The notes: generated by a model from the letters alone, not told the origin. A stretch of DNA of 64,000 nt from Oerskovia enterophila (GCF_001692445.1 NZ_MAQA01000004.1:1-64000); one strand, 5' to 3'. Shown: positions 4,839 to 24,412, counted from the stretch's first letter. Numbers and translations: made by a program.

Positions 4839-7172
4839 TTGGACGGGCTTCTAGACGGAGAGCTGCTTGAGGGGGCGCACGAGGCTCGGATCTCGTACAG
4901 GCCCGCCCGGATCGCGATGCCGCTCCGAGGTGGCGACTTCCGCAGACAGGTCGAGCACGTGTGCCAAGTGTGGGGTGGGGCCACGAGGCCGTTGATCCCC
5001 GTCGACCGCGAAGGGCGCGTCGGCGAGCTGTGGCGTGGCGTCCTGCCGGGAGCAGACGTGGACGGCCTGGACGGCGCCCACCCCTTCGATCTCGCGAAGA
5101 TCGAAGAGCTCCGGGTCACTTCCGATAGGTCCGGTCCGAGCTACGGGGACCAGCTCGCGATCACCCTGCTGCCGTACCGGCGAGAAGAGGAGTTCCCGAA
5201 GCTTGAGGTTGTGACGCTTGAGCTGGACGACCCGTGGGACGGAATCTACGCCGCCTGCTTGGGGGCACTGCCCGAGTCGCTTGATGCTGAGTACCTACGG
5301 ACTCAGCACTACAACCCAGATCTGGCGTTCGAGGATTTCGCACACGTTGACCGCGTACGAGTCATGGGTTCGCTGGACGACCTGCTGGAGCGTCTCGTGG
5401 CTCGTACGCCTGCCACGCCGAGGCGCATGTCGATGCTTCATCTCGCGTACGGGACGAGCGGGAGCAGTTCGATCCGCTCGAGGACAGACGTCATTCCTCA
5501 GGAGGGTTTCGCCCGCAACGACGCTGGCCCGAACGTCGTCGTCGTGTGTTCTCCTGGGAGCACCGACGACCTGGCGCTTCTGTGGAACCTGCGCGCGGCG
5601 AACGGCGACGCCTTCTCCGTACCGATCGGCGTACCAGCAGAATCCCTCGATGCCGACGCGCTCTCGAAGATCTTGCGTGAGGGCAGAATCGCGATCAACG
5701 GAATGCCTCACCGCTCGCTCTACGTGACGAGCACCAGCGTCTCGGCCGCCGACCTACGCAGCGCCGTGGCGCAGCAGGACATGGCAGAGATAGTCGAGCC
5801 TGCCGAATTGGTTGACTTAGGACGGCCGGGGACGATCAGCAGAGACGAGGTGCTCATCTGGGCAGAGGGGAAGTCCCGCGTTCAGATGGTGCCCCGGGAT
5901 TCAGTGGAACGGATCTTCGAGCGCGGGGCACCAAGCGACTTCACCCGGATGTACCTCGATGTGCAGGTGTATGACAGCCCCCTGCCCCAGGCCCCCGACT
6001 ACAGGGTCGGAGACTTCTACGCAGGGTCACGCACGACCTTCACAGTCCTAGACCGGTCGTCCAAGATCGAGGATCTTGAGTGGCCTTCGCGTCTGCTCAT
6101 GGCGCAGTCGCTGGCGGCGAGGCGCGGCTACGATCTCGCAGAGTCTGATCCGGGCCGTGTGGCGCGCTTCGCGCTCGCCGCCATGGGAAGCATTCCTGGA
6201 ATCGACATGCTCATCCACGCCCCGCTGCTCGGTCTCCTCGAAGAGATGGCGGCACGGCAAGGTTTCAACTGGTACAAGAGCCGCCTGCGATCTCAGGGGG
6301 ACACCGCAGACCCGCTCGACGCAGTCGGCCCAACAGTGGACGAACTCCCTCGCAAGACCCTCAACGACTTCAGAAAGGTGCTCGGCCAGAACTCGGCGGC
6401 CGCGCGCCAGTGGCTGGTGTGGGCCGAGAAGGCAAACGTCGTCGTCAAGGGTTTCGAGATTTCGTGCCCGGTGTGCGGGGCGAAGCAATGGCTCCCCGTC
6501 TCGGCGTTCGCCCCACCGATCACGTGCCGTGGCTGCGCCGGACACATCGAGTACCCGTTCGGCCAGCACACCTCGGTCGACTTTCGGTACCGGCTGTCCG
6601 AGCGCATGAGACGTGTGTTCGAGTGCGATGCGATGGGTCACCTGCTGCTGCTCCGGCTCTTCAGGTACGTCTTCCACCCGAGTCCGGGCGGCGGGGGTTT
6701 CCTCGTAGGTATGAGTCCGGGGATGGAGGTGCGCAAGCGCGGAACTGCTGACCCCCTCGGAGAGGCAGATCTCCTCATGCTCAGCCGTGCCGGGGAGTTC
6801 ATCCCGGCAGAGTTCAAACGTTCAGCGACCGGGTTGACTGAGGGCGAGATGGAGAAGCTCGATCGGCTCTGCGAGGCACTCCACTCACCCTGGTCCGTCG
6901 TTGCGTACGCCGCGTACAACAAGGACGTCGAGACCGACATCGCCGGTCTTGAGCGACGGGACAGCGCCGGGGTCCGCACGCGCGTCGTGCTCTCGTACGA
7001 CCGGCTTTTAAGCGTGCACCCCGTCTGGAGCATGGGCGACGATCCCTTCGCGATTCGGACAATGAGCCAGGAGGAGATCGACGAGCGCGAGGCGGCGTTC
7101 GTCAGCTCCCTCGCCGGGATTGATCCTGGTGATCGCAGCTGGCTGGAGTACTCGATGCTCGAGACCCGCTGA
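4839..7172 (+). CDS. unknown protein with zinc ribbon and PD-(D/E)XK-like motif
   Basis: This 777-residue protein belongs to no family I recognise. The C-terminal third has two legible modules. The first is a zinc ribbon with Cys543, Cys546, Cys563 and Cys566 (CX2C-X16-CX2C). The second is a stretch with Asp644 and Glu658-Phe-Lys660 (EADLLML, then PAEFKR), matching the spacing and hydrophobic context of PD-(D/E)XK nucleases. The first 500 residues lack Walker motifs or membrane segments. The TTG start at 4839 is uncertain: GGAGGGG lies only 2 bp upstream, and in-frame alternatives lie downstream. It is divergent from the radical-SAM gene and convergent, 6 bp apart, with the NERD-like gene. 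The island setting suggests a role in defence or DNA processing, which is inference. Confidence 0.6.
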   Translation: MDGLLDGELLEGAHEARISYRPARIAMPLRGGDFRRQVEHVCQVWGGATRPLIPVDREGRVGELWRGVLPGADVDGLDGAHPFDLAKIEELRVTSDRSGPSYGDQLAITLLPYRREEEFPKLEVVTLELDDPWDGIYAACLGALPESLDAEYLRTQHYNPDLAFEDFAHVDRVRVMGSLDDLLERLVARTPATPRRMSMLHLAYGTSGSSSIRSRTDVIPQEGFARNDAGPNVVVVCSPGSTDDLALLWNLRAANGDAFSVPIGVPAESLDADALSKILREGRIAINGMPHRSLYVTSTSVSAADLRSAVAQQDMAEIVEPAELVDLGRPGTISRDEVLIWAEGKSRVQMVPRDSVERIFERGAPSDFTRMYLDVQVYDSPLPQAPDYRVGDFYAGSRTTFTVLDRSSKIEDLEWPSRLLMAQSLAARRGYDLAESDPGRVARFALAAMGSIPGIDMLIHAPLLGLLEEMAARQGFNWYKSRLRSQGDTADPLDAVGPTVDELPRKTLNDFRKVLGQNSAAARQWLVWAEKANVVVKGFEISCPVCGAKQWLPVSAFAPPITCRGCAGHIEYPFGQHTSVDFRYRLSERMRRVFECDAMGHLLLLRLFRYVFHPSPGGGGFLVGMSPGMEVRKRGTADPLGEADLLMLSRAGEFIPAEFKRSATGLTEGEMEKLDRLCEALHSPWSVVAYAAYNKDVETDIAGLERRDSAGVRTRVVLSYDRLLSVHPVWSMGDDPFAIRTMSQEEIDEREAAFVSSLAGIDPGDRSWLEYSMLETR

Positions 7173-7178
7173 CGCTGG

Positions 7179-7790
7179 TCAGCCGGTCGGGTGCATCTGT
7201 GCGATAGGGCCGCGAGTAGTCCGATCGACCGGCTGGCGCCGGAGCCACCGCTCGAGCGCGAGGCCGAGCCGCGCAGCCACAATGGGGGTCGCCGGGTCCG
7301 GCGCGTCGGTGACGAACCCGCGCCGAGTGAGCGCGCCCTCGAGCCCGTCGAGCGAGACGACGTCGGCACCAGGCACGCTCAGCCAACGCACGCTCGCGCT
7401 CTCGCCAGCCTTGCTCGGCCACACAATCCAGAGCGGGCGCACCAGCACGCCGCCGGACTGACGGACGTACGAGCCCATCCTGTCGACGGCCAGCTGTGCG
7501 TGACGGTGCGTGGCCGGAGCGAACATTTCCGTGCCTCTGCGCGGGGTTACGCCCAGCCACCCACCCCAGTAGGTGCCTGGTTCCCAGAGCTTCGCGTCGA
7601 CCAGCAGCACGCGCCCACCGTGAACCCAGATGCCGTCCACATCCGCACCTCGCGATCCGGGGATCGTGCACGGCCCTAGTGCCACCGCGTGGGGCAGCTG
7701 CTCGTGCAGCAGGTCCTCCGTTGCTCGCTCGGCTCGCGCTGCGAGGTACTGGCCGCGGGCAGCGGTTTCCCGCCATCCGGTGCTCGTCAT
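7179..7790 (-). CDS. NERD-like nuclease-fold protein
   Basis: This 203-residue protein has an N-terminal NERD/restriction-endonuclease-like core: Glu25, then Asp52 (ADVDGIWV) and Asp65-Ala-Lys67 (LLVDAKLW). This follows the D-X12-(D/E)-X-K pattern of PD-(D/E)XK nucleases. NERD domains occur in DNA-processing and plasmid or phage proteins. The ATG at 7790 overlaps the stop of the frameshifted upstream gene (ATGA), so the two were probably co-translated. The C-terminal 90 residues are Arg/Trp-rich and could bind nucleic acid. It converges with the 777-residue protein, which also has a nuclease-like motif. Confidence 0.65.
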   Translation of the reverse strand: MTSTGWRETAARGQYLAARAERATEDLLHEQLPHAVALGPCTIPGSRGADVDGIWVHGGRVLLVDAKLWEPGTYWGGWLGVTPRRGTEMFAPATHRHAQLAVDRMGSYVRQSGGVLVRPLWIVWPSKAGESASVRWLSVPGADVVSLDGLEGALTRRGFVTDAPDPATPIVAARLGLALERWLRRQPVDRTTRGPIAQMHPTG

Positions 7791-8954
7791 GACTGCGTCT
7801 CCGTTCTCGACGGAGCCGTCCCCGTCGCCTCGTCGTCCGCTGCGTCGGTCCGAGCAGCGGTGCCTTCCTCTGTACCGCCGAGCAGGCGTCGTGCAGCCGA
7901 ATCCGCCCTGCGGCCAGCGGGCGTGCAGGACGAGGGTCTCCGCGACGACGGTGCCGACCGCGTCACTGCGGTCGTCGGGGACGGTCGCAGGGAGCACCGC
8001 GGCGGCCTCCATCCACGCGCGCAGCACTTCAGCGAATCCCTCAGGAGGGTTGTCGCCGACGAGCACCGGGGCCACCGAGGACCAGGCCCCGGATGCCAGG
8101 CGGCAGGAGCTTCCCGTACGCGCGCACCAGCTCGGTCTGCTCGTCGATGATCGGTAGGCCGCGCTTGCTCTGCTGGTGCAGCCGGACCGCGCGAGTGCGC
8201 TCCGCCTTCGCTTCCGCTCGTCGCGTCTTGCGTGTCTTTCGTGCCTCGGCGGCGCCAGAGGCCAGCGCTGCACGGTCGAGGTCTGCGACGGTCCACGTCT
8301 CCAGATCCACACCGGCGTCGGCGACAGCCCGGCGGGTATTCTTACCCAGGCCGCCGGCGACCCTGGCGTGCGGTTCGCGGCCGTCAGCGACAAGCGCGCG
8401 AGACAGCGCAGTGCGCATCAGTGCCCACCAGCCCATGCGACCAAGCCCAGCGCCCTCGAAGACGTCGTGGGTCACCAGCCGTGCGACGGAGCGCACGTCT
8501 TCGGTCATCAGCTGAGCAAGAGGCGACGCAGAACCCGCATAATTGAGGGCCACCCGGAAGCCGAGGCCTGAGCTACGGCCGTAGTCGCGACGGACCACCC
8601 ATACCCTCGACGGACCGGCATAACGACGAACCGCCGTGCGCACTGTCGCCGGGTCCCACCCGAGCGCCGCACCGGTGTCATGGGCCGTGCCTGGCGCAGC
8701 ACACCCACGACAGCCTTGATGTCGTCCGCGTCGCACGCACCAGCCGCACGATCTGCGTACTGCACGGCACGGGCAGCCGCCAAAGCAGCGGCGCGAGGGG
8801 AGCGTCCAAGTGCCCGCGTCTGCACAGCGCGCACAGCAGCATCACGGGCGGCTGGGTCAGCGCGCACAGCAGCATCACGGGCGGCTGGGTCAGCGCCCTT
8901 CCCACCGATATGCACACCCGCCGACGGTGCAGTGATGGTCGATACGTCACTCAT
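7787..8954 (-). pseudogene. frameshifted island gene of unknown function
   Basis: A good start is visible: ATG at 8954 with GGAGGTG 6 bp upstream. Protein-like sequence continues through four segments in different frames. The first is an Ala-rich N-terminus (to about 8690). Then comes a segment of about 200 residues with a possible helix-turn-helix (GWDPATVRTAVRRY) and a basic KTRKTRRAEAKAERT stretch. A segment at about 8050-7900 contains LVGDNPPEGFAEVLRAW, and an acidic tail ends at 7787. The tail overlaps the NERD gene start as ATGA, which supports it as the original 3' end. At least three frameshifts are needed to join them. Genuine decay and sequencing error are both possible. No family was recognised. 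Confidence 0.55.
8826..8891. repeat. 33-bp tandem duplication
   Basis: Two exact 33-bp units (8826-8858 and 8859-8891) lie head to tail inside the frameshifted gene. They duplicate 11 codons in frame, giving two DPAARDAAVRA units. This looks like a recent slippage event. Confidence 0.9.
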
Positions 8955-9195
8955 GAGGAACACCTCCCAGAGAGTCGGCGCGGGGCTCCGTCATCCGTCC
9001 CGACGTGCGCAACGCGGAGCGCCGCCGCGGAGCCGAGCGAAACTCGACCAGCGCGAAAATCGCGCGCAGCAAAGCCCCCACGGCGCCAGAGTGGAGGCGT
9101 TCTCGGCAACGCCGAGTCAGGGCGAGATTGGACGTCGTGGCGTGCGTCGTCGTGAGAAACGTCCGCAGTGTGACGAACAGGGCACCACCCTGAAC

Positions 9196-9506
9196 CGCCG
9201 GAACCTGGGGCAGCGGCAGATGGCCGCCGCGGCGGCGGCCATCGGAATCCCTGACTTGACCGTCCATGAGCTCCGGCACACCGCGCCATTGCATCCGGTC
9301 TCGATGTCCACGCTGTCCAGCGCATCGCCGGCCACTCGCGGCTGTCTACGAGCCTGACGTGTACTCGCACTGGCTGGGGGGAGGACTGGACCGCCGCGAG
9401 GGAGCAGATAGGGGACTACGTGGCTGCGGAGCGTGCGAAGGCTGCGCTCAAAGTCCCCAGAAAATCCCCTGAGGCTCCCGAGCAAGCCTCTGACCTGCGC
9501 GACTAA
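9196..9506 (+). pseudogene. tyrosine integrase, C-terminal remnant with frameshifts
   Basis: Pieces of a phage-type integrase catalytic domain are legible in three frames. IPDLTVHELRHTA contains the Arg-X-X-Arg-like LRHT box. HAVQRIAGHSRLST follows in a second frame and DVYSHWLG in a third. A final segment ends in VPRKSPEAPEQ and a stop at 9504-9506. The order matches the end of a tyrosine recombinase, but the N-terminal arm- and core-binding domains are missing. It ends 17 bp before the third att copy, the usual position of an integrase relative to its att site. Confidence 0.75.
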
Positions 9507-9522
9507 CTCAAAGACAACCGGG

Positions 9523-9566
9523 CTCCTAAGGCGGGTGTCGCCAGTTCGAATCTGGCCAGGCGCACC
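9523..9566 (+). repeat. att core copy 3 (right end of island)
   Basis: This is a 44-bp copy of tRNA-Arg positions 172-215 with one A-to-G change, lying just after the integrase remnant. Beyond it the sequence becomes typical high-G+C backbone with the esterase gene. I take this as the right attachment site. Confidence 0.85.
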
Positions 9567-9598
9567 AGCATCTCCCCGGCTTGCCTGGGCCCCCGGGT

Positions 9599-10786
9599 CT
9601 ACCGCTCGTCGCGCCGCTCGACCGACGCCCTCGTCGCCTCCGGCGCGCGGCCCCGCGCCACCACCCGCCCGGCGAACTCCTCGACCGCTGCGACGACCGC
9701 GTCGAACCTCATCGAGTGGAACAGGTCGAACCCGTGCTGCGCCCCGGGCAGCTCGGCGTACACGACCGGCGACGACGAGACCTCCCGCAGGTGCCGCACG
9801 AACCGGCGCGCCCCCTCGACCGGCACCAGGGTGTCCTGGTCGCCGTGCACCACGAGGAACGGGGGAGCGTCGGGCCGCACGTAGTCGGCCGGCGACGAGT
9901 CGACGGCCAGGTCGCGGCCGCTGCCGTAGTACTCGCCGAAGTAGCCGTAGAGGCAGACCACCCCGACCACGGACGTGTCGGCGCCCTCGAACCCGGGCTG
10001 GAACCGGGCGTCTCCCGGGGTGAGCGCGGCGAGCGCCGCGAGGTGCGCGCCGGCCGAGCTGCCCGCGACGACGACACGAGCGGTGTCGGCCCCGTGGTCG
10101 GCGCCGTGCTCGCGGACCCAGGCCAGCACCTGCTTGGCGTCGACCAGGTGGCCGGGGAAGTTCGTCGTCGGGCGCAGTCCGTAGTTCGCGCTCACGCACA
10201 CCCAGCCGTGGCTCGCGAGGCGCGAGAGCATCGCCCGGGCCTCGAGCTCCTTGCGCCCGCTCACGTACCCACCGCCGTGGAAGTACACGAGCGTCGGCCC
10301 GTCGGGCGGGCGCGACCGGGGGCGGTACACGTCGAGCCGGTGGTGCTGGGCGCCGTCGCCGTACGCCAGGTCGCGCACACGCGCGACGTCGCGTCGCCGT
10401 ACCGCGAACGGGGCCAGCAGGATCCGGCGCCAGGGCAGCCCGCGCGCCGTGACGGCTCCCGGCGCGGTCGCGAGTCCCGCGACGAGCGTGCGGTCGAGCG
10501 CGGGCACCGCGCGCAGGCCGCGTCGCGCGACCACGACGAGCCCGGCCGCGGTCAGGACGGACAGGGCGAGCCCGACGCGGCCGGCGGGCGTCGCGCCGTC
10601 GCCGTCGCCGACCGCGATCACCGACAGGGCGGTCAGCGCGGCCAGCATGACGAACGGCTGCTCGTTCACCAGGACGCTCAGGCGAAAGCTCAACCGTCCC
10701 AGTCCGGGCGGCCGGCGGGCGGGGACCAGGGACGTCGTGGTGCAGCACGCGAGCAGCAGCACCGGGACGAGGTACCCGATCGCCAT
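9599..10786 (-). CDS. membrane-anchored alpha/beta-hydrolase (esterase)
   Basis: This 395-residue protein has hydrophobic N-terminal segments (about residues 3-20, 45-60 and 72-88), followed by a hormone-sensitive-lipase-type alpha/beta-hydrolase. Motifs are HGGG (170-173, oxyanion hole), GSSAG (nucleophile Ser244), HGDQD (Asp316 or Asp318) and GAQHGF (His351), giving a complete catalytic triad. The domain likely hydrolyses small acyl esters, and the substrate is unknown. The C-terminal catalytic domain may face outward if the helices number three. It is the first backbone gene right of the island and ends about 33 bp beyond the att repeat. Confidence 0.85.
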   Translation of the reverse strand: MAIGYLVPVLLLACCTTTSLVPARRPPGLGRLSFRLSVLVNEQPFVMLAALTALSVIAVGDGDGATPAGRVGLALSVLTAAGLVVVARRGLRAVPALDRTLVAGLATAPGAVTARGLPWRRILLAPFAVRRRDVARVRDLAYGDGAQHHRLDVYRPRSRPPDGPTLVYFHGGGYVSGRKELEARAMLSRLASHGWVCVSANYGLRPTTNFPGHLVDAKQVLAWVREHGADHGADTARVVVAGSSAGAHLAALAALTPGDARFQPGFEGADTSVVGVVCLYGYFGEYYGSGRDLAVDSSPADYVRPDAPPFLVVHGDQDTLVPVEGARRFVRHLREVSSSPVVYAELPGAQHGFDLFHSMRFDAVVAAVEEFAGRVVARGRAPEATRASVERRDER

Positions 10787-17993: not shown

Positions 17994-20900
17994 GTGAACG
18001 CAGCCGCCCGCACCTCATCTGCCCACGAGTCCGTGGCCGATTCCGCTCGGCCGCTCACCGACCAGACCGCGCCCGACGGCGCCTCAGCCGGTGCCCCGCC
18101 GAAGGGGTCCGACGGCGCGACCGTCGCAGGGCCGCCCGTGCTCGTCGAGCCCCCCACGACCGCCGAGCTCGTCGAGGACGCCGTCCGGTCCTGGCGTGCC
18201 TCGCTCGTCGAGCTCGCGGGCGGTTCCTCGCTCGCGGACATCGGGCTCCTGGGGGACGCCGTCATCGATCTCACCGCGGCCCACCCGTCGGGGGTCGCGC
18301 AGCTCTTCGCCGGCCGACCGACCCGCCTGTCCAACCTCTTCCGCGAAGGGGCGTCGCTGCCCGCTGCTCGCCGCCGGGCCCGCGCCGTGGTCGTCCGGTC
18401 GCAGGAGCACGCCCAGCGCTACGGCGTCGCACCGACCTACCTCGCGATCGGTGTCACGACCTGGACCGAGGAGGAGCCCTCACGGCTCCCCACCGACGAC
18501 GTCGCAGCGCTCGCGCACGTCGCCGGCTCGTCGCACGGCCGGACCATCGACGGGGCGACCGGCCTGCCTGCCGATCCCGCGGACCCGGCTCACGACCCCT
18601 CGGCCGACCCGGCCCAGGCCGCGCAGGGCGACCACGAGGCCGCCGCCGGCGCGCCGCACGCGGTGAGCGGCGCCGTCGGGCCCGAGGACGCCACGGTGAA
18701 CCCGGCCGGCGGGGCCACCGCGCCCGACCCGGTCCTGCCGCGCACCGTGCGCGCCCCCGTCCTGCTACGCCCTCTCACGCTCACCCCGCGCGGCGACAGC
18801 GAGACCGACTACGACCTCACGCTCGAACCGACCGTCGAGATCAACCCCCTGCTCGCCCGCACCCTGCGCGCCCACGGCGGGCTGATCGACCCCGTGACGC
18901 TCGCCCGCAGCGCCTTCACGCCCGCGGGCTTCGACCCCTCGGACGCGCTCACCAGGATCACGGCCGTGGGCCGGGCCGTGCTCGGCGACTTCGAGATGAC
19001 CCAGCGCGTGCTCGTCGGGACGTTCGTCCACCCCGGCCAGGTGCTCGTCGACGACCTCGACGAGCTGGCCTCGGGCCTGGAGCGGCACGAGGTCGTCGCG
19101 GCGCTCGCCGGCTCCGACGAGGCCGCGACCGCGCTCGAGCGCGAGCTCCCGGCGCCCCGCGTCGGGGACGCGGACCCCACCCAGGAGCGCGGGGTGGGCG
19201 ACCTCGACCCCGCCCAGCGCCACGTGATCGACACGCTCGCGACCGGCAGCCACCTGTTCGTCGACGCTCCCGCGGGGTCCGACGTCGCGGGCACGCTCGC
19301 GGCCGTCGTGGCCGAGGCGGCGGCCAGCGGGCGCAGCATCCTCTACGTCCCCGGGCACCGCAGGGCGGCCGACTCGCTGACCCACCGGCTCGAGACGCTC
19401 GGCCTGGACGGACTGATCCTCGACATCGAGCCCGAGCCCACGTGGCGGGCCACGGCCTCGCACCGCCTGCTCGCGGCCATGGCCGCCGAGGCCGAGGTCG
19501 TCGACACCGACGCCGTGGCCCGCGTGCGCGACGGGCTCCTCGGTGCGCGTGCCCAGCTCTCGGGCTACGTCGAGTCGCTGCACCTGGTGCGCGAGCCGTG
19601 GGGGGTGTCCGCGTACGCGGCCCTGCAGGCGCTCGCACGCCTCACCGCGCAGCGCCCCGCTCCCGCGACGACCGTCCGACTCGGACCCGAGGTCACGCTC
19701 CGGATCGGCGCCGAGCGCCGCGCCGAGCTCGCGGCGCGGCTCGAAGGCGCGGCCGACGTCGGCGCGTTCACGCTCCGCTCGACGTCCACGCCCTGGTTCG
19801 GCGCGGACATCACGAGCAGCGAGGGCGCCCAGGACGCACTGGTCCGGGTCGAGCGGCTCGCGGCGCGGACCCTGCCCGAGCTCCGCGAGCAGGTCGAGTC
19901 GGTCGCCCGGACCACGGGCCTCACGCCTGCCACGTCGGTCCGCCAGTGGGGCGAGCAGCTCACGATGCTCGGCGGGATGCGCGGCACCCTCGACGCGTTC
20001 CAGCCCCTGATCTTCGAGCGCACCGCGACCGACCTCGTCGAGGCCACCGGGACGCGCCAGTGGCGCGCCGACAACGGGATCGACATGGGCTGGGCCCATC
20101 GGCGACGGCTCCGCAAGCAGGCCAAGGACATGCTCCGTCCCGGGGTCCGGGTCGCGGACCTCCACGCGGCCCTCGTCGAGGTCCAGGCGCAGCGCGCGGT
20201 CTGGCAGGCGCAGTGCCCCCGCGGCGGCTGGCCCACCCTCCCCGAGGGGCTCGCGGCGATCGAGGACACGTTCGAGGCCGTGCGTCTCGACCTCGAGTAC
20301 CTCGAGCCGGTCCTGTCCACGACCCCCGTCGGGGCGGACCTGATGGATCTCCCGCTCCCCGAGCTCGCCGCGCGCCTCGTGAGCCTGAGCGAGGAGAAGG
20401 ACGCGCTCGAGCACCTGCCGGCACGCACCGCGGCGCTGCGGTCGCTGCGTGACGAGGGGCTCGGCGAGCTGCTCGACGACCTCTCGGCCCGACGCGTCGA
20501 GAAGGAGCTGGTGGGCCCCGAGCTCGACCTCGCGTGGTGGAGCTCGGTCTTCGAGCAGATCCTCGCGCAGGACCCCGCGCTGGCAGGTCAGGACGGTGCG
20601 GGCCTCGAGGCGCTCGCGGGCCGGTTCCGCGAGCTCGACCGGACCCACATCACCGCGCTCTCGGCCCCCGTGCGGGTCGCGGTGCGCGAGCACCTCGGCG
20701 GCGCGATGCGCGATCACCGGTCCGAGGCGGAGGCCCTGTTCACCGAGCTCCTCGAGGGGCGGCTCACGAGCCTGCGCGACGCGCACGAGCTCTACCCCGA
20801 GGTCCTGCGCCGGCTGCGCCCGTGCGTCGTCGCGTCGCCCACGCTCGTGCCGCACCTGTTCACCCCGGCGCGCACGGTCGACCTCGTGATCCTCGACGCC

Positions 20901-22139
20901 GTCCAGCACCTGCCGGTCGAGCTCGTGCTGTCGGCCCTCGCCCGCGGCCGTCAGGTCGTGGTCGTCGGGGACCCGCGTGCAGCGTCCGGGTCGGCCGTCA
21001 AGGAGCTCGCCGCCGTCCTGCCCACGGTCGCCCTGTCCGCGGGTGGTGCGCGACGCGACCCGTACCTGACGGCCTTCCTCGTCGCGCACGGGTACGAGGG
21101 CGTGCTCCGCCCGAGCCCGCTGCCGCGGGCCGAGCCCCTGGTGCACCTCGACCTGGTCGACGGCGCAGGGATGCCCGACCCGACCTCGGGAGCGGTCGAG
21201 AGCACGCAGGCCGAGGTGGACCGGGTCGTGGAGATCGCGATCGAGCACGCCATGACGCGCCCCGAGGAGTCGCTCGCGATCGTCACGGTGAGCGCGGTGC
21301 ACGCCGACCGGATCCGGGACGCGCTGCTCGCCGAGGTCCGGCAGAACCCGGCCCTTGCCGCGTTCTTCTCCGGTGCGCGGGCCGAGCCCGTCGTGGTGGC
21401 CGAGGTCTCGGCGGTCGCGGGGCTCACGCGTGACGCGATCGTCCTGTCGGTCGGGTACGGCCGCACCCCGCACGGGCGGGTCCTGCACCGGTTCGGCGTG
21501 CTCAACGCCGCGGGTGGGGACGCGATGCTCCTCGACACGCTGGGCTCGACGCGCCGTCGGCTGCACGTCGTCACGTGCTTCACCGCGGCCGACCTCGACC
21601 CCGAGAGGCTGCGGGGGCACGGCGCCAAGCTGCTCGCCGAGGTCCTGGACCTGGCCGAGCAGCGCAACGGCCGCGCGGACCAGGTCACGCTCGGCAACGG
21701 CGTGGACGTCGGGGGGAACCCGGACCGCCTCGTGATCGACCTGGCCGAGCGTCTGTGGCGCGCGGGTCTCGTGGTCGAGACCGACTACGGCGTGGCCGGG
21801 GGCGACCGGATCCCGCTCGTCGTGGGGCACCCCGACCTCCCGGGCGAGCTCCTCGTGGCGGTCCTGACCGACGACGACGCGTACGTCGCCGAGCGCAGCG
21901 TCCGCGTCCGCGACCGGCAGATCGCCGAGCGGCTCGAGTCCGCGGGATGGGTCGTGGCGCAGGTGTGGTCGGCGGCGGCGTTCCTCGACCCGGCCAAGGA
22001 GGCCGAGCGCATCCGCCGCGTGGTCCAGGCGGTGCGCGACGCTCGGCTGCCCGAGCGGGGCGGGATCGCGCAGACGGGGGGCGGCGACCGCATCGTCGTG
22101 GTGCCCGTGGTCGCGGACGACGAGTTCGGTACCGACTGA
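17994..22139 (+). CDS. large SF1 helicase/nuclease-like protein with degenerate active sites
   Basis: This 1381-residue protein follows the plan of DUF4011-type superfamily 1 proteins: a helicase core split by a long insert, then a Vsr-like nuclease domain. The expected Walker A is DAPAGSDVAGT at 424-434. The lysine position is Val431 and the following Ser/Thr is Ala432. Walker B reads LDAVQ, with Ala969 in place of the catalytic Glu. The motif V/VI region (AVAGLTRDAIVLSVGYG and then STRRRLHVV) is also changed. In the C-terminal domain the expected acidic residues are replaced (RIPLVV, AVLTDD). The fold seems kept but catalysis looks lost, so a structural or binding role is more likely. A leaderless start is suggested by TAGCGT 6 bp upstream of the GTG. 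Confidence 0.7.
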   Translation: MNAAARTSSAHESVADSARPLTDQTAPDGASAGAPPKGSDGATVAGPPVLVEPPTTAELVEDAVRSWRASLVELAGGSSLADIGLLGDAVIDLTAAHPSGVAQLFAGRPTRLSNLFREGASLPAARRRARAVVVRSQEHAQRYGVAPTYLAIGVTTWTEEEPSRLPTDDVAALAHVAGSSHGRTIDGATGLPADPADPAHDPSADPAQAAQGDHEAAAGAPHAVSGAVGPEDATVNPAGGATAPDPVLPRTVRAPVLLRPLTLTPRGDSETDYDLTLEPTVEINPLLARTLRAHGGLIDPVTLARSAFTPAGFDPSDALTRITAVGRAVLGDFEMTQRVLVGTFVHPGQVLVDDLDELASGLERHEVVAALAGSDEAATALERELPAPRVGDADPTQERGVGDLDPAQRHVIDTLATGSHLFVDAPAGSDVAGTLAAVVAEAAASGRSILYVPGHRRAADSLTHRLETLGLDGLILDIEPEPTWRATASHRLLAAMAAEAEVVDTDAVARVRDGLLGARAQLSGYVESLHLVREPWGVSAYAALQALARLTAQRPAPATTVRLGPEVTLRIGAERRAELAARLEGAADVGAFTLRSTSTPWFGADITSSEGAQDALVRVERLAARTLPELREQVESVARTTGLTPATSVRQWGEQLTMLGGMRGTLDAFQPLIFERTATDLVEATGTRQWRADNGIDMGWAHRRRLRKQAKDMLRPGVRVADLHAALVEVQAQRAVWQAQCPRGGWPTLPEGLAAIEDTFEAVRLDLEYLEPVLSTTPVGADLMDLPLPELAARLVSLSEEKDALEHLPARTAALRSLRDEGLGELLDDLSARRVEKELVGPELDLAWWSSVFEQILAQDPALAGQDGAGLEALAGRFRELDRTHITALSAPVRVAVREHLGGAMRDHRSEAEALFTELLEGRLTSLRDAHELYPEVLRRLRPCVVASPTLVPHLFTPARTVDLVILDAVQHLPVELVLSALARGRQVVVVGDPRAASGSAVKELAAVLPTVALSAGGARRDPYLTAFLVAHGYEGVLRPSPLPRAEPLVHLDLVDGAGMPDPTSGAVESTQAEVDRVVEIAIEHAMTRPEESLAIVTVSAVHADRIRDALLAEVRQNPALAAFFSGARAEPVVVAEVSAVAGLTRDAIVLSVGYGRTPHGRVLHRFGVLNAAGGDAMLLDTLGSTRRRLHVVTCFTAADLDPERLRGHGAKLLAEVLDLAEQRNGRADQVTLGNGVDVGGNPDRLVIDLAERLWRAGLVVETDYGVAGGDRIPLVVGHPDLPGELLVAVLTDDDAYVAERSVRVRDRQIAERLESAGWVVAQVWSAAAFLDPAKEAERIRRVVQAVRDARLPERGGIAQTGGGDRIVVVPVVADDEFGTD

Positions 22140-22158: not shown

Positions 22159-22425
22159 GTGCTCCCCGACGACCCAGCCTCCCGCCCCGATGCCCCGGAC
22201 CCTGCGGGAGACGTTGCGGGCGACGTTCCGGCGGTGGGCGTGCCGAGCGGGCATCCGCCGCGACGCAGGTCTCGCCGGGTCGTGCGACGGGGCACCGAGC
22301 AGGCAGGAGTCGCTGGACTGGGGTCCGACGACGACGCCGTGACCTGGGGCGACGCGCGCCCGGGGGCTGCGGAGAGCAGTCACGACGCCGAGCTTCTGCG
22401 AGACGTCCCGCCGCACTGGTCCTGA
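22159..22425 (+). CDS. small conserved-type hypothetical protein
   Basis: This 88-residue protein has a disordered Pro/Asp/Arg-rich N-terminus. Its C-terminus (VTWGD and then LLRDVPPHW) looks like a conserved short linear ending. It begins 19 bp after the helicase-like gene and is probably co-transcribed with it. GAGAAT just upstream could be a -10, or the GTG could be reached by re-initiation. No domain with known function was recognised. Confidence 0.6.
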   Translation: MLPDDPASRPDAPDPAGDVAGDVPAVGVPSGHPPRRRSRRVVRRGTEQAGVAGLGSDDDAVTWGDARPGAAESSHDAELLRDVPPHWS

Positions 22426-22623: not shown

Positions 22624-23070
22624 TCAGCGGATGCCGGGCCCGTCGACCGGACCGGAACCCGGGCCGGCGCCGCGTGCGTTCTGCGCCGCGAGCAGGTCGC
22701 GGATCTCCTGGAGGACCAGGACGTCCTCGGCCGGCGCCTCGGGCTCGGCCTGCTCACCCGTCTTGCGCATCGATGCCAGGTGGTTCATGGGCATGACGAT
22801 GACGAAGTAGAGCGCAGCGGCGACGCACAGGAACTTGAAGAGCGCGTCGAGGATGAGACCGATGCTGAAGTCGGCACCGTTGATGCTGAAGTTCAGGACA
22901 CCCGTCAGGTCCGGCTTCCCGAAGATGGCGGCGACGAGCGGGTTGATGAGGCCGTCGACGATCGACGTCACGACGAGCGTGAACGCCCCGCCGATCACGA
23001 CGCCGACCGCCAGGTCGATCGCGTTGCCGCGGAGCACGAACTCCTTGAAGCCGTTGAACACGTTCTTCAT
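22624..23070 (-). CDS. mscL: large-conductance mechanosensitive channel MscL
   Basis: This 148-residue protein is a homopentameric channel that opens under membrane tension to release solutes during hypo-osmotic shock. The N-terminal amphipathic helix FKEFVLRGNAIDLAVGVVIGGAF leads into TM1, and the second helix (FLCVAAALYFVIVMPMNHL) is TM2. A charged cytoplasmic tail follows. The ATG at 23070 has AAAGGA 8 bp upstream. The tail (EAPAEDVLVLQEIRDLL) matches the C-terminal bundle of actinobacterial MscL. Confidence 0.95.
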   Translation of the reverse strand: MKNVFNGFKEFVLRGNAIDLAVGVVIGGAFTLVVTSIVDGLINPLVAAIFGKPDLTGVLNFSINGADFSIGLILDALFKFLCVAAALYFVIVMPMNHLASMRKTGEQAEPEAPAEDVLVLQEIRDLLAAQNARGAGPGSGPVDGPGIR

Positions 23071-24052: not shown

Positions 24053-24412
24053 TCAGCTCGCGGAGGAGCCCGACGAGCTCGACGAACCCGACGTCCCGCT
24101 CGACGAGGACGTGCCCGTCGAGCCGCTCGACGAAGAACCGCTCGACGACGAGCCGCTGCTCGACGAGTCCGACGACTTGGACCCCGCGGAGGGCGTGGTC
24201 GACGCGCTGCCGGCTCCCATGCTGGACGACTTCGAGGACCGCGAGTCCGTCCGGTAGAAGCCCGAGCCCTTGAAGGTCACGCCGACCGACGAGAAGACCT
24301 TGCGCAGGCGTCCGCCGCACTCCGGGCACACCGTCAGAGCATCGTCGGTGAACGCCTGGTGGATGTCGAAGGCGTGGCCGCAGGCAGTGCACGTGTACGC
24401 GTAGGTGGGCAC
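24053..24412 (-). CDS. FmdB-type zinc-ribbon protein with Ser-rich tail
   Basis: This 119-residue protein begins with an FmdB/CxxC regulatory zinc ribbon: CTAC (about 8-11) and CPEC (about 29-32), followed by FKGSGFYRTD, the usual end of the domain. The last 50 residues are almost only Ser and Gly with a few Thr, encoded by repeated codons. They are likely disordered. The GTG at 24412 has GAGGAG 5 bp upstream. The function of this family is not settled. The low-complexity tail makes it longer than the minimal domain of about 70 residues. Confidence 0.85.
   Translation of the reverse strand: MPTYAYTCTACGHAFDIHQAFTDDALTVCPECGGRLRKVFSSVGVTFKGSGFYRTDSRSSKSSSMGAGSASTTPSAGSKSSDSSSSGSSSSGSSSSGSTGTSSSSGTSGSSSSSGSSAS

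Follow-up and report, generated by a model that had tools for sequence, protein, structure and literature searches.

A core actinobacterial homolog of superfamily 1 helicase-Vsr nucleases with eroded catalytic motifs and an adjacent PPHW microprotein

For the 64,000-nucleotide stretch of Oerskovia enterophila DNA analyzed here (GCF_001692445.1, NZ_MAQA01000004.1:1-64000; hereafter the window), the gene at positions 17994-22139 encodes a giant homolog of superfamily 1 (SF1) helicase-Vsr nucleases that has lost the helicase motifs and most of the nuclease active site. This large protein is a strongly conserved core gene product across almost an entire actinobacterial order and is vertically inherited. 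Purifying selection on the gene is strong, and a microprotein gene lies directly downstream. An earlier note, made from the sequence of the window, had pointed to both genes. Other genes nearby (MscL, SAF, FmdB, VKOR, and penicillin acylase) are named throughout by eye from their sequences, without a family search. The features of the large gene are as follows.

17994..22139, + strand: pseudo-helicase-nuclease of 1381 amino acids, related to ProA/PDC-S37, of a subfamily fixed beside MscL-SAF-FmdB
18171..18488, + strand: N-terminal DUF4011-like region, residues about 60-165, below the Pfam cutoff and recognizable by alignment
19266..19295, + strand: former Walker A, residues 425-434, APAGSDVAGT, Lys replaced by Val431
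20883..20909, + strand: former Walker B/motif II, residues 964-972, LVILDAVQH, Glu replaced by Ala969
20961..20990, + strand: former motif III, residues 990-999, VVGDPRAASG (VAGDERQLPP in intact homologs)
21405..21434, + strand: former motif V, residues 1138-1147, VSAVAGLTRD (LERVQGDERD in intact homologs)
21522..21554, + strand: former motif VI, residues 1177-1187, AMLLDTLGSTR (RRLNVAITRAR in intact homologs)
21741..22019, + strand: Vsr-like restriction endonuclease (REase) domain PF18741 (MTES_1575), residues 1250-1342, by Pfam and alignment

The open reading frame (ORF) has 1381 codons and a GTG start; this annotated start is uncertain, as conservation with homolog L002 does not extend to the beginning of the protein (the match starts at residue 8). 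The closest named record is from Oerskovia merdavium (97% identity across the full protein). Motifs were called by alignment against intact homologs, and the two helicase substitutions named in the earlier note proved exact: Val431 replaces the Lys of GPPGTGKSQT in Walker A, and Ala969 replaces the Glu of VVVFDEASQ in Walker B. Motif IV reads LSAGGAR, compared with LRWHYRS in intact homologs, and erosion extends over every SF1 motif from I to VI, the motif VI Arg included. The note had also described the nuclease acidic residues as changed, which holds for two of the three, namely Asp to Pro1274 (RIDL to RIPL) and Glu to Leu1291 (VESDG to VLTDD), while Asp1293 is kept. A motif scan of the whole 1381-residue protein, which contains just eight lysines, found neither GxxxxGK[ST] nor hhhDE at any place, and no true Walker A lies elsewhere.

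Homologs were sampled from roughly 120-140 genomes, with most lineages given as family codes (such as f5, f17, f35, and f45). All 39 relatives sampled (33 genera and 15 family codes) have a homolog. A probe of 200 amino acids over the Walker A region likewise matched in every genome of a 39-genome draw from the order, with the limit that this probe also catches other helicases and the best match in some of these genomes may be one of them. The class-wide draw was patchy, with matches in 39 of 60 genomes, many of them weak and probably made through unrelated helicases. The set used for comparison comprised 74 subfamily members and 15 ProA-type homologs. SF1 motifs are kept in all 15 ProA-type sequences. 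Among the 74 members, four are intact (L038 and L074 of f5, L075 of f17, and L102 of f45), six combine a dead helicase with a complete nuclease triad (L034, L035, L036, L076, L077, and L080), 61 have lost both, and three are incomplete. Motif loss is nearly order-wide rather than peculiar to the Oerskovia genome. The Walker A Lys position is occupied by many different residues. The six members in which only the helicase is dead may represent nucleases that have become uncoupled from ATP. The existence of such members suggests that the ATPase was lost first and the nuclease later.

In a maximum-likelihood tree built with the motif columns removed, the subfamily is separated from the ProA-type sequences with a support of 100, and the reading of this sampled tree depends on long branches. 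Parsimony gives four changes of the Walker A Lys in one analysis and three in another; independent losses in several lineages are suggested, not proven. Many orthologs (L038, L048, L044, and L036) have an extra C-terminal domain that is absent from the Oerskovia protein, with the pattern GLPxxxYxxxxLDxxVxWIxSDGxxR...RRGxRVDAAIxxAIRR. In L018 (Actinomyces sp. oral taxon 448, 5731-10211), the ortholog is split across two overlapping frames, which represents a frameshift or an assembly error.

Between Oerskovia species, the ratio of nonsynonymous to synonymous substitution rates (dN/dS, by the NG86 method) is 0.07-0.16 for the large gene, similar to or below the values of nearby genes (0.11-0.21 for the penicillin-acylase-like gene, 0.12-0.35 for MscL, and 0.07-0.15 for the VKOR-like gene), and its divergence is dominated by third positions. 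Conservation at the former motif I-III positions (0.56-0.58) is only average compared with 0.54 overall, and invariant sites are found elsewhere in the protein, W601, A684, L727, G822, and W1319 among them. An AlphaFold2 model of residues 240-1355, built with 43 homologs, has a mean predicted local distance difference test score (pLDDT) of 89.6 and a predicted template modeling score (pTM) of 0.73. The model keeps a UPF1-like SF1 core of two RecA domains plus the nuclease. The SF1 and Vsr-like architecture described in the earlier note is confirmed.

These results bear on whether the gene may be a decaying pseudogene that stays open by chance in GC-rich DNA. Long spurious ORFs do occur in GC-rich genomes, and an antisense ORF of 1176 amino acids is also present here. 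However, the dN/dS values and the third-position-dominated divergence, a frame that is open in nearly all genera sampled, and the confident fold leave this explanation with almost no probability; a passive pseudogene is ruled out by dN/dS and retention. Instead, selection appears, judging from the model, to maintain the fold but not catalysis. The order-wide motif loss, near-universal retention, low dN/dS, and intact predicted fold give good support to selection for a role other than catalysis, as first proposed from the sequence of the window.

Foldseek searches with the model returned Aquarius as the top match, along with UPF1, IGHMBP2, Sen1/senataxin, Dna2, and ZNFX1; E-values were 1e-8 to 1e-5 for Aquarius, UPF1, IGHMBP2, Sen1, and Dna2. 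No RecC or AddB was found among the 50 Foldseek matches listed, and a sequence search of solved structures gave no match to the Oerskovia protein. The rank of Aquarius, and the presence of Mycobacterium smegmatis HelD on RNA polymerase at rank 47, would fit a regulator of RNA polymerase or of a ribonucleoprotein, in which an SF1-fold protein docks structurally on a large machine. However, the template modeling scores, which reflect the SF1 core common to these proteins, are low, no transcription-linked synteny was found, and HelD itself is an active ATPase. Such a regulator is considered very unlikely.

The second component of the locus is the microprotein, for which two features were recorded.

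22159..22425, + strand: microprotein of 88 amino acids, disordered-looking, with a conserved C-terminal tail, SHDAELLRDVPPHWS
22399..22422, + strand: coding sequence of the RDVPPHWS tail, the sole match to an RDVPPHW-type pattern in the genome

This ORF begins 19 bp downstream of the large gene and is real. The C-terminal PPH[WY] tail is often found inside N-D-x-R-L-L-R-D-V-P-P-H-W. A separate ORF with this tail lies directly downstream in 51 of the 74 members, and in nine others (L007, L008, L039, L044, L075, L080, L085, L092, and L093) the tail is fused to the C-terminus of the large protein. Control scans for PPH[WY] at the same loci (antisense, upstream, and interior) each gave 0 of 74. 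The 14 members without a strict tail match include L035 and L047, in which PPHW is followed by further residues. The tail accompanies intact and dead enzymes alike, and neither the microprotein nor its tail has a significant match in Pfam or NCBIfam. The suggestion that the 88-residue gene encodes a partner of the large protein is strongly supported by the conserved adjacency and the fusions. In Pseudomonas aeruginosa, a DUF4011 gene likewise belongs to the core genome; it borders a defense hotspot (cDHS1; PMC10250203) and has a small, conserved hypothetical gene beside it, a possible parallel to this pair.

For membership in known families, PF18741 (MTES_1575 REase) is the sole Pfam family above cutoff in the Oerskovia protein (46.3 bits against a gathering threshold of 38.2). 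DUF4011 (PF13195) scores 12.9 bits, below its gathering threshold of 22.2, and the AAA domains (AAA_19) are also sub-threshold. In comparison, the intact homolog L038 exceeds the Pfam cutoffs for AAA_11, AAA_12, DUF4011 (29.3 bits), and MTES_1575. The ProA model (NF058533) gives 339.7 bits (E 3e-101) and does not reach its curated cutoff of 1500, whereas the canonical ProA-type L054 scores 1557.3 bits. PDC-S37 of PADLOC matches the Oerskovia protein at E 7e-97 and L038 at 804 bits, and Hhe (NF042953) gives 167.2 bits, short of its cutoff of 2000. The Oerskovia protein would work like a pseudohelicase. By these scores it falls outside ProA, Hhe, and DUF4011, and, judging from the 50 Foldseek matches listed, also outside the RecC/AddB group. 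Its score places it inside the MTES_1575 REase fold family, with most of the active site gone.

The domain order of a DUF4011-like region, a split SF1 core, and an MTES_1575 Vsr-like REase is common to the Oerskovia protein and ProA/PDC-S37. However, the Oerskovia protein is shorter, has lost the catalytic motifs, and belongs to its own clade. Moreover, its gene is core and syntenic whereas ProA is scattered, and it has the PPHW partner, which is absent from the ProA-type loci examined. The anti-phage DUF4011 protein Hhe shares the broad architecture with the Oerskovia protein, which differs from it in the loss of the catalytic motifs. The giant SF1 helicase-Vsr-winged helix-turn-helix (wHTH) proteins with MTES_1575 domains resemble the Oerskovia protein in the PF18741 REase and the SF1 fold, and were described with active HEPN, transglutaminase-like, and wHTH domains (PMC3710099), none of which was detected in the Oerskovia protein by Pfam. 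In RecC and AddB, inactivated SF1 helicase domains serve as DNA scanners (PMC4824097), a precedent for non-catalytic use of an SF1 fold that is kept after its motifs are lost. Unlike the Oerskovia protein, which is UPF1-like and has no known active partner, AddB is UvrD-like and both act inside a helicase-nuclease complex. The pseudohelicases PriA of Deinococcus radiodurans (PMC4504706) and Utp25 (PMC9539457) also keep a helicase fold without catalytic function. These two proteins belong to helicase families other than that of the Oerskovia protein. To our knowledge, neither has a dead nuclease or a microprotein partner. No description of the present family or of the PPHW microprotein was found in the open literature library searched.

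Downstream of the microprotein, three conserved neighbors are encoded on the opposite strand.

22624..23070, - strand: MscL, 148 amino acids
23255..23995, - strand: SAF-domain-like protein
24053..24412, - strand: FmdB-like zinc-ribbon protein

This neighborhood is shared by three of the four intact members (L038, L074, and L075) and by most dead members. For this reason, the intact f5 and f17 genes are regarded as positional counterparts rather than a separate defense gene, and the ancestor of the subfamily was probably active.

Taken together, a scaffold role of the large protein is plausible, and the explanation that we favor, with roughly even confidence, is a non-catalytic nucleic-acid-binding scaffold with the microprotein as a flexible recruitment tail. 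The ancestor, a ProA/PDC-S37-like SF1 helicase carrying a Vsr-type nuclease, would have become fixed beside MscL-SAF-FmdB in Actinobacteria. The ATPase/translocase residues would then have been lost, as would the nuclease residues in most lineages, with the fold under strong selection and the large protein acting through binding, with no turnover. A platform for nucleic acid and protein may be formed jointly by the Vsr fold and the UPF1-like SF1 core, which has a long helical insert, in analogy to RecC and AddB, where inactivated SF1 domains bind DNA. The PPHW microprotein, whether downstream or fused, may serve as a flexible tail that recruits a third factor by docking it. Its logic would be comparable to that of the C-terminal tail of SSB. 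A more far-reaching proposal, which we put forward tentatively, is that an anti-phage-type enzyme became a dead SF1 helicase-Vsr nuclease and was domesticated, via the PPHW microprotein, into an indispensable scaffold for housekeeping or as an immune hub. Loss of the ATPase and then of the nuclease would have been stepwise, perhaps in several lineages independently, giving a two-part, clade-defining actinobacterial module.

Several observations weigh against these proposals. For the Walker A Lys, approximately unbiased (AU) tests do not reject fewer losses (p = 0.067, 0.124, and 0.338). For the natural fusion L007, a docked position of the PPHW tail was rejected, as AlphaFold2 leaves the tail disordered and away from the core (pLDDT about 32-43), and no binding site for it is therefore predicted. 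In addition, similar PPHW proteins of 47-55 amino acids, ending in '...DDTDLGWGEW...LLEDRPPHW', occur at L141, L142, and L143 (genomes G077, G097, and G114; f35), where no close helicase homolog was found, so the tail is not helicase-specific. This suggests a wider actinobacterial PPHW-tail family, and the microprotein would represent an older or wider family that the large-protein module uses. Finally, the retained Asp1293 makes residual or altered activity of the Oerskovia nuclease formally possible. A cryptic enzyme, that is, a non-canonical ATPase or nuclease with different residues, would be in line with the persistence in most members of Asp1293 and the conserved TDDDAYVAEPSxR..RDR stretch, and with the six helicase-dead members whose nuclease triad is complete. 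Against the lack of Walker A and hhhDE, the scarcity of lysines, the erosion of every SF1 motif, and the variable Lys position, this strikes us as quite unlikely.

The f35 loci are also relevant to an alternative in which the large protein is an immune sensor or decoy that mimics ProA/Hhe/RecBCD-like enzymes to bind phage inhibitors, or that senses them, with the PPHW microprotein as signal or effector. A STAND-TPR NTPase gene is divergent from the PPHW gene in L141 and L143 (a PepN-like sequence, identified by eye, adjoins in L142), and STAND NTPases are a class known from defense. The nearest catalytic families, ProA, PDC-S37, and Hhe, are furthermore annotated as anti-phage. However, the STAND link involves two loci only, no defense genes were recognized next to the large gene, and the gene, which is near-universal, syntenic, and under strong purifying selection, is unlike typical defense genes. 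A phage decoy in particular has no direct support, as this is a core gene in a housekeeping neighborhood. We consider the sensor or decoy unlikely, and the universality and synteny favor a housekeeping role.

Inactive helicases and inactive nucleases have each been described on their own, and also as parts of RecBCD/AddAB. The scaffold proposed here would be a free-standing giant protein that is apparently both, and it persists in almost all sampled genera of a large order. Apparently active relatives still occupy the same chromosomal site, and the subfamily provides a natural series of intact, ATPase-dead, and doubly dead members, in which one can study how a defense-type enzyme turns into a pseudoenzyme. 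The PPHW microprotein may be under-annotated owing to its small size, and its fusions to the large protein offer a testable handle on function.

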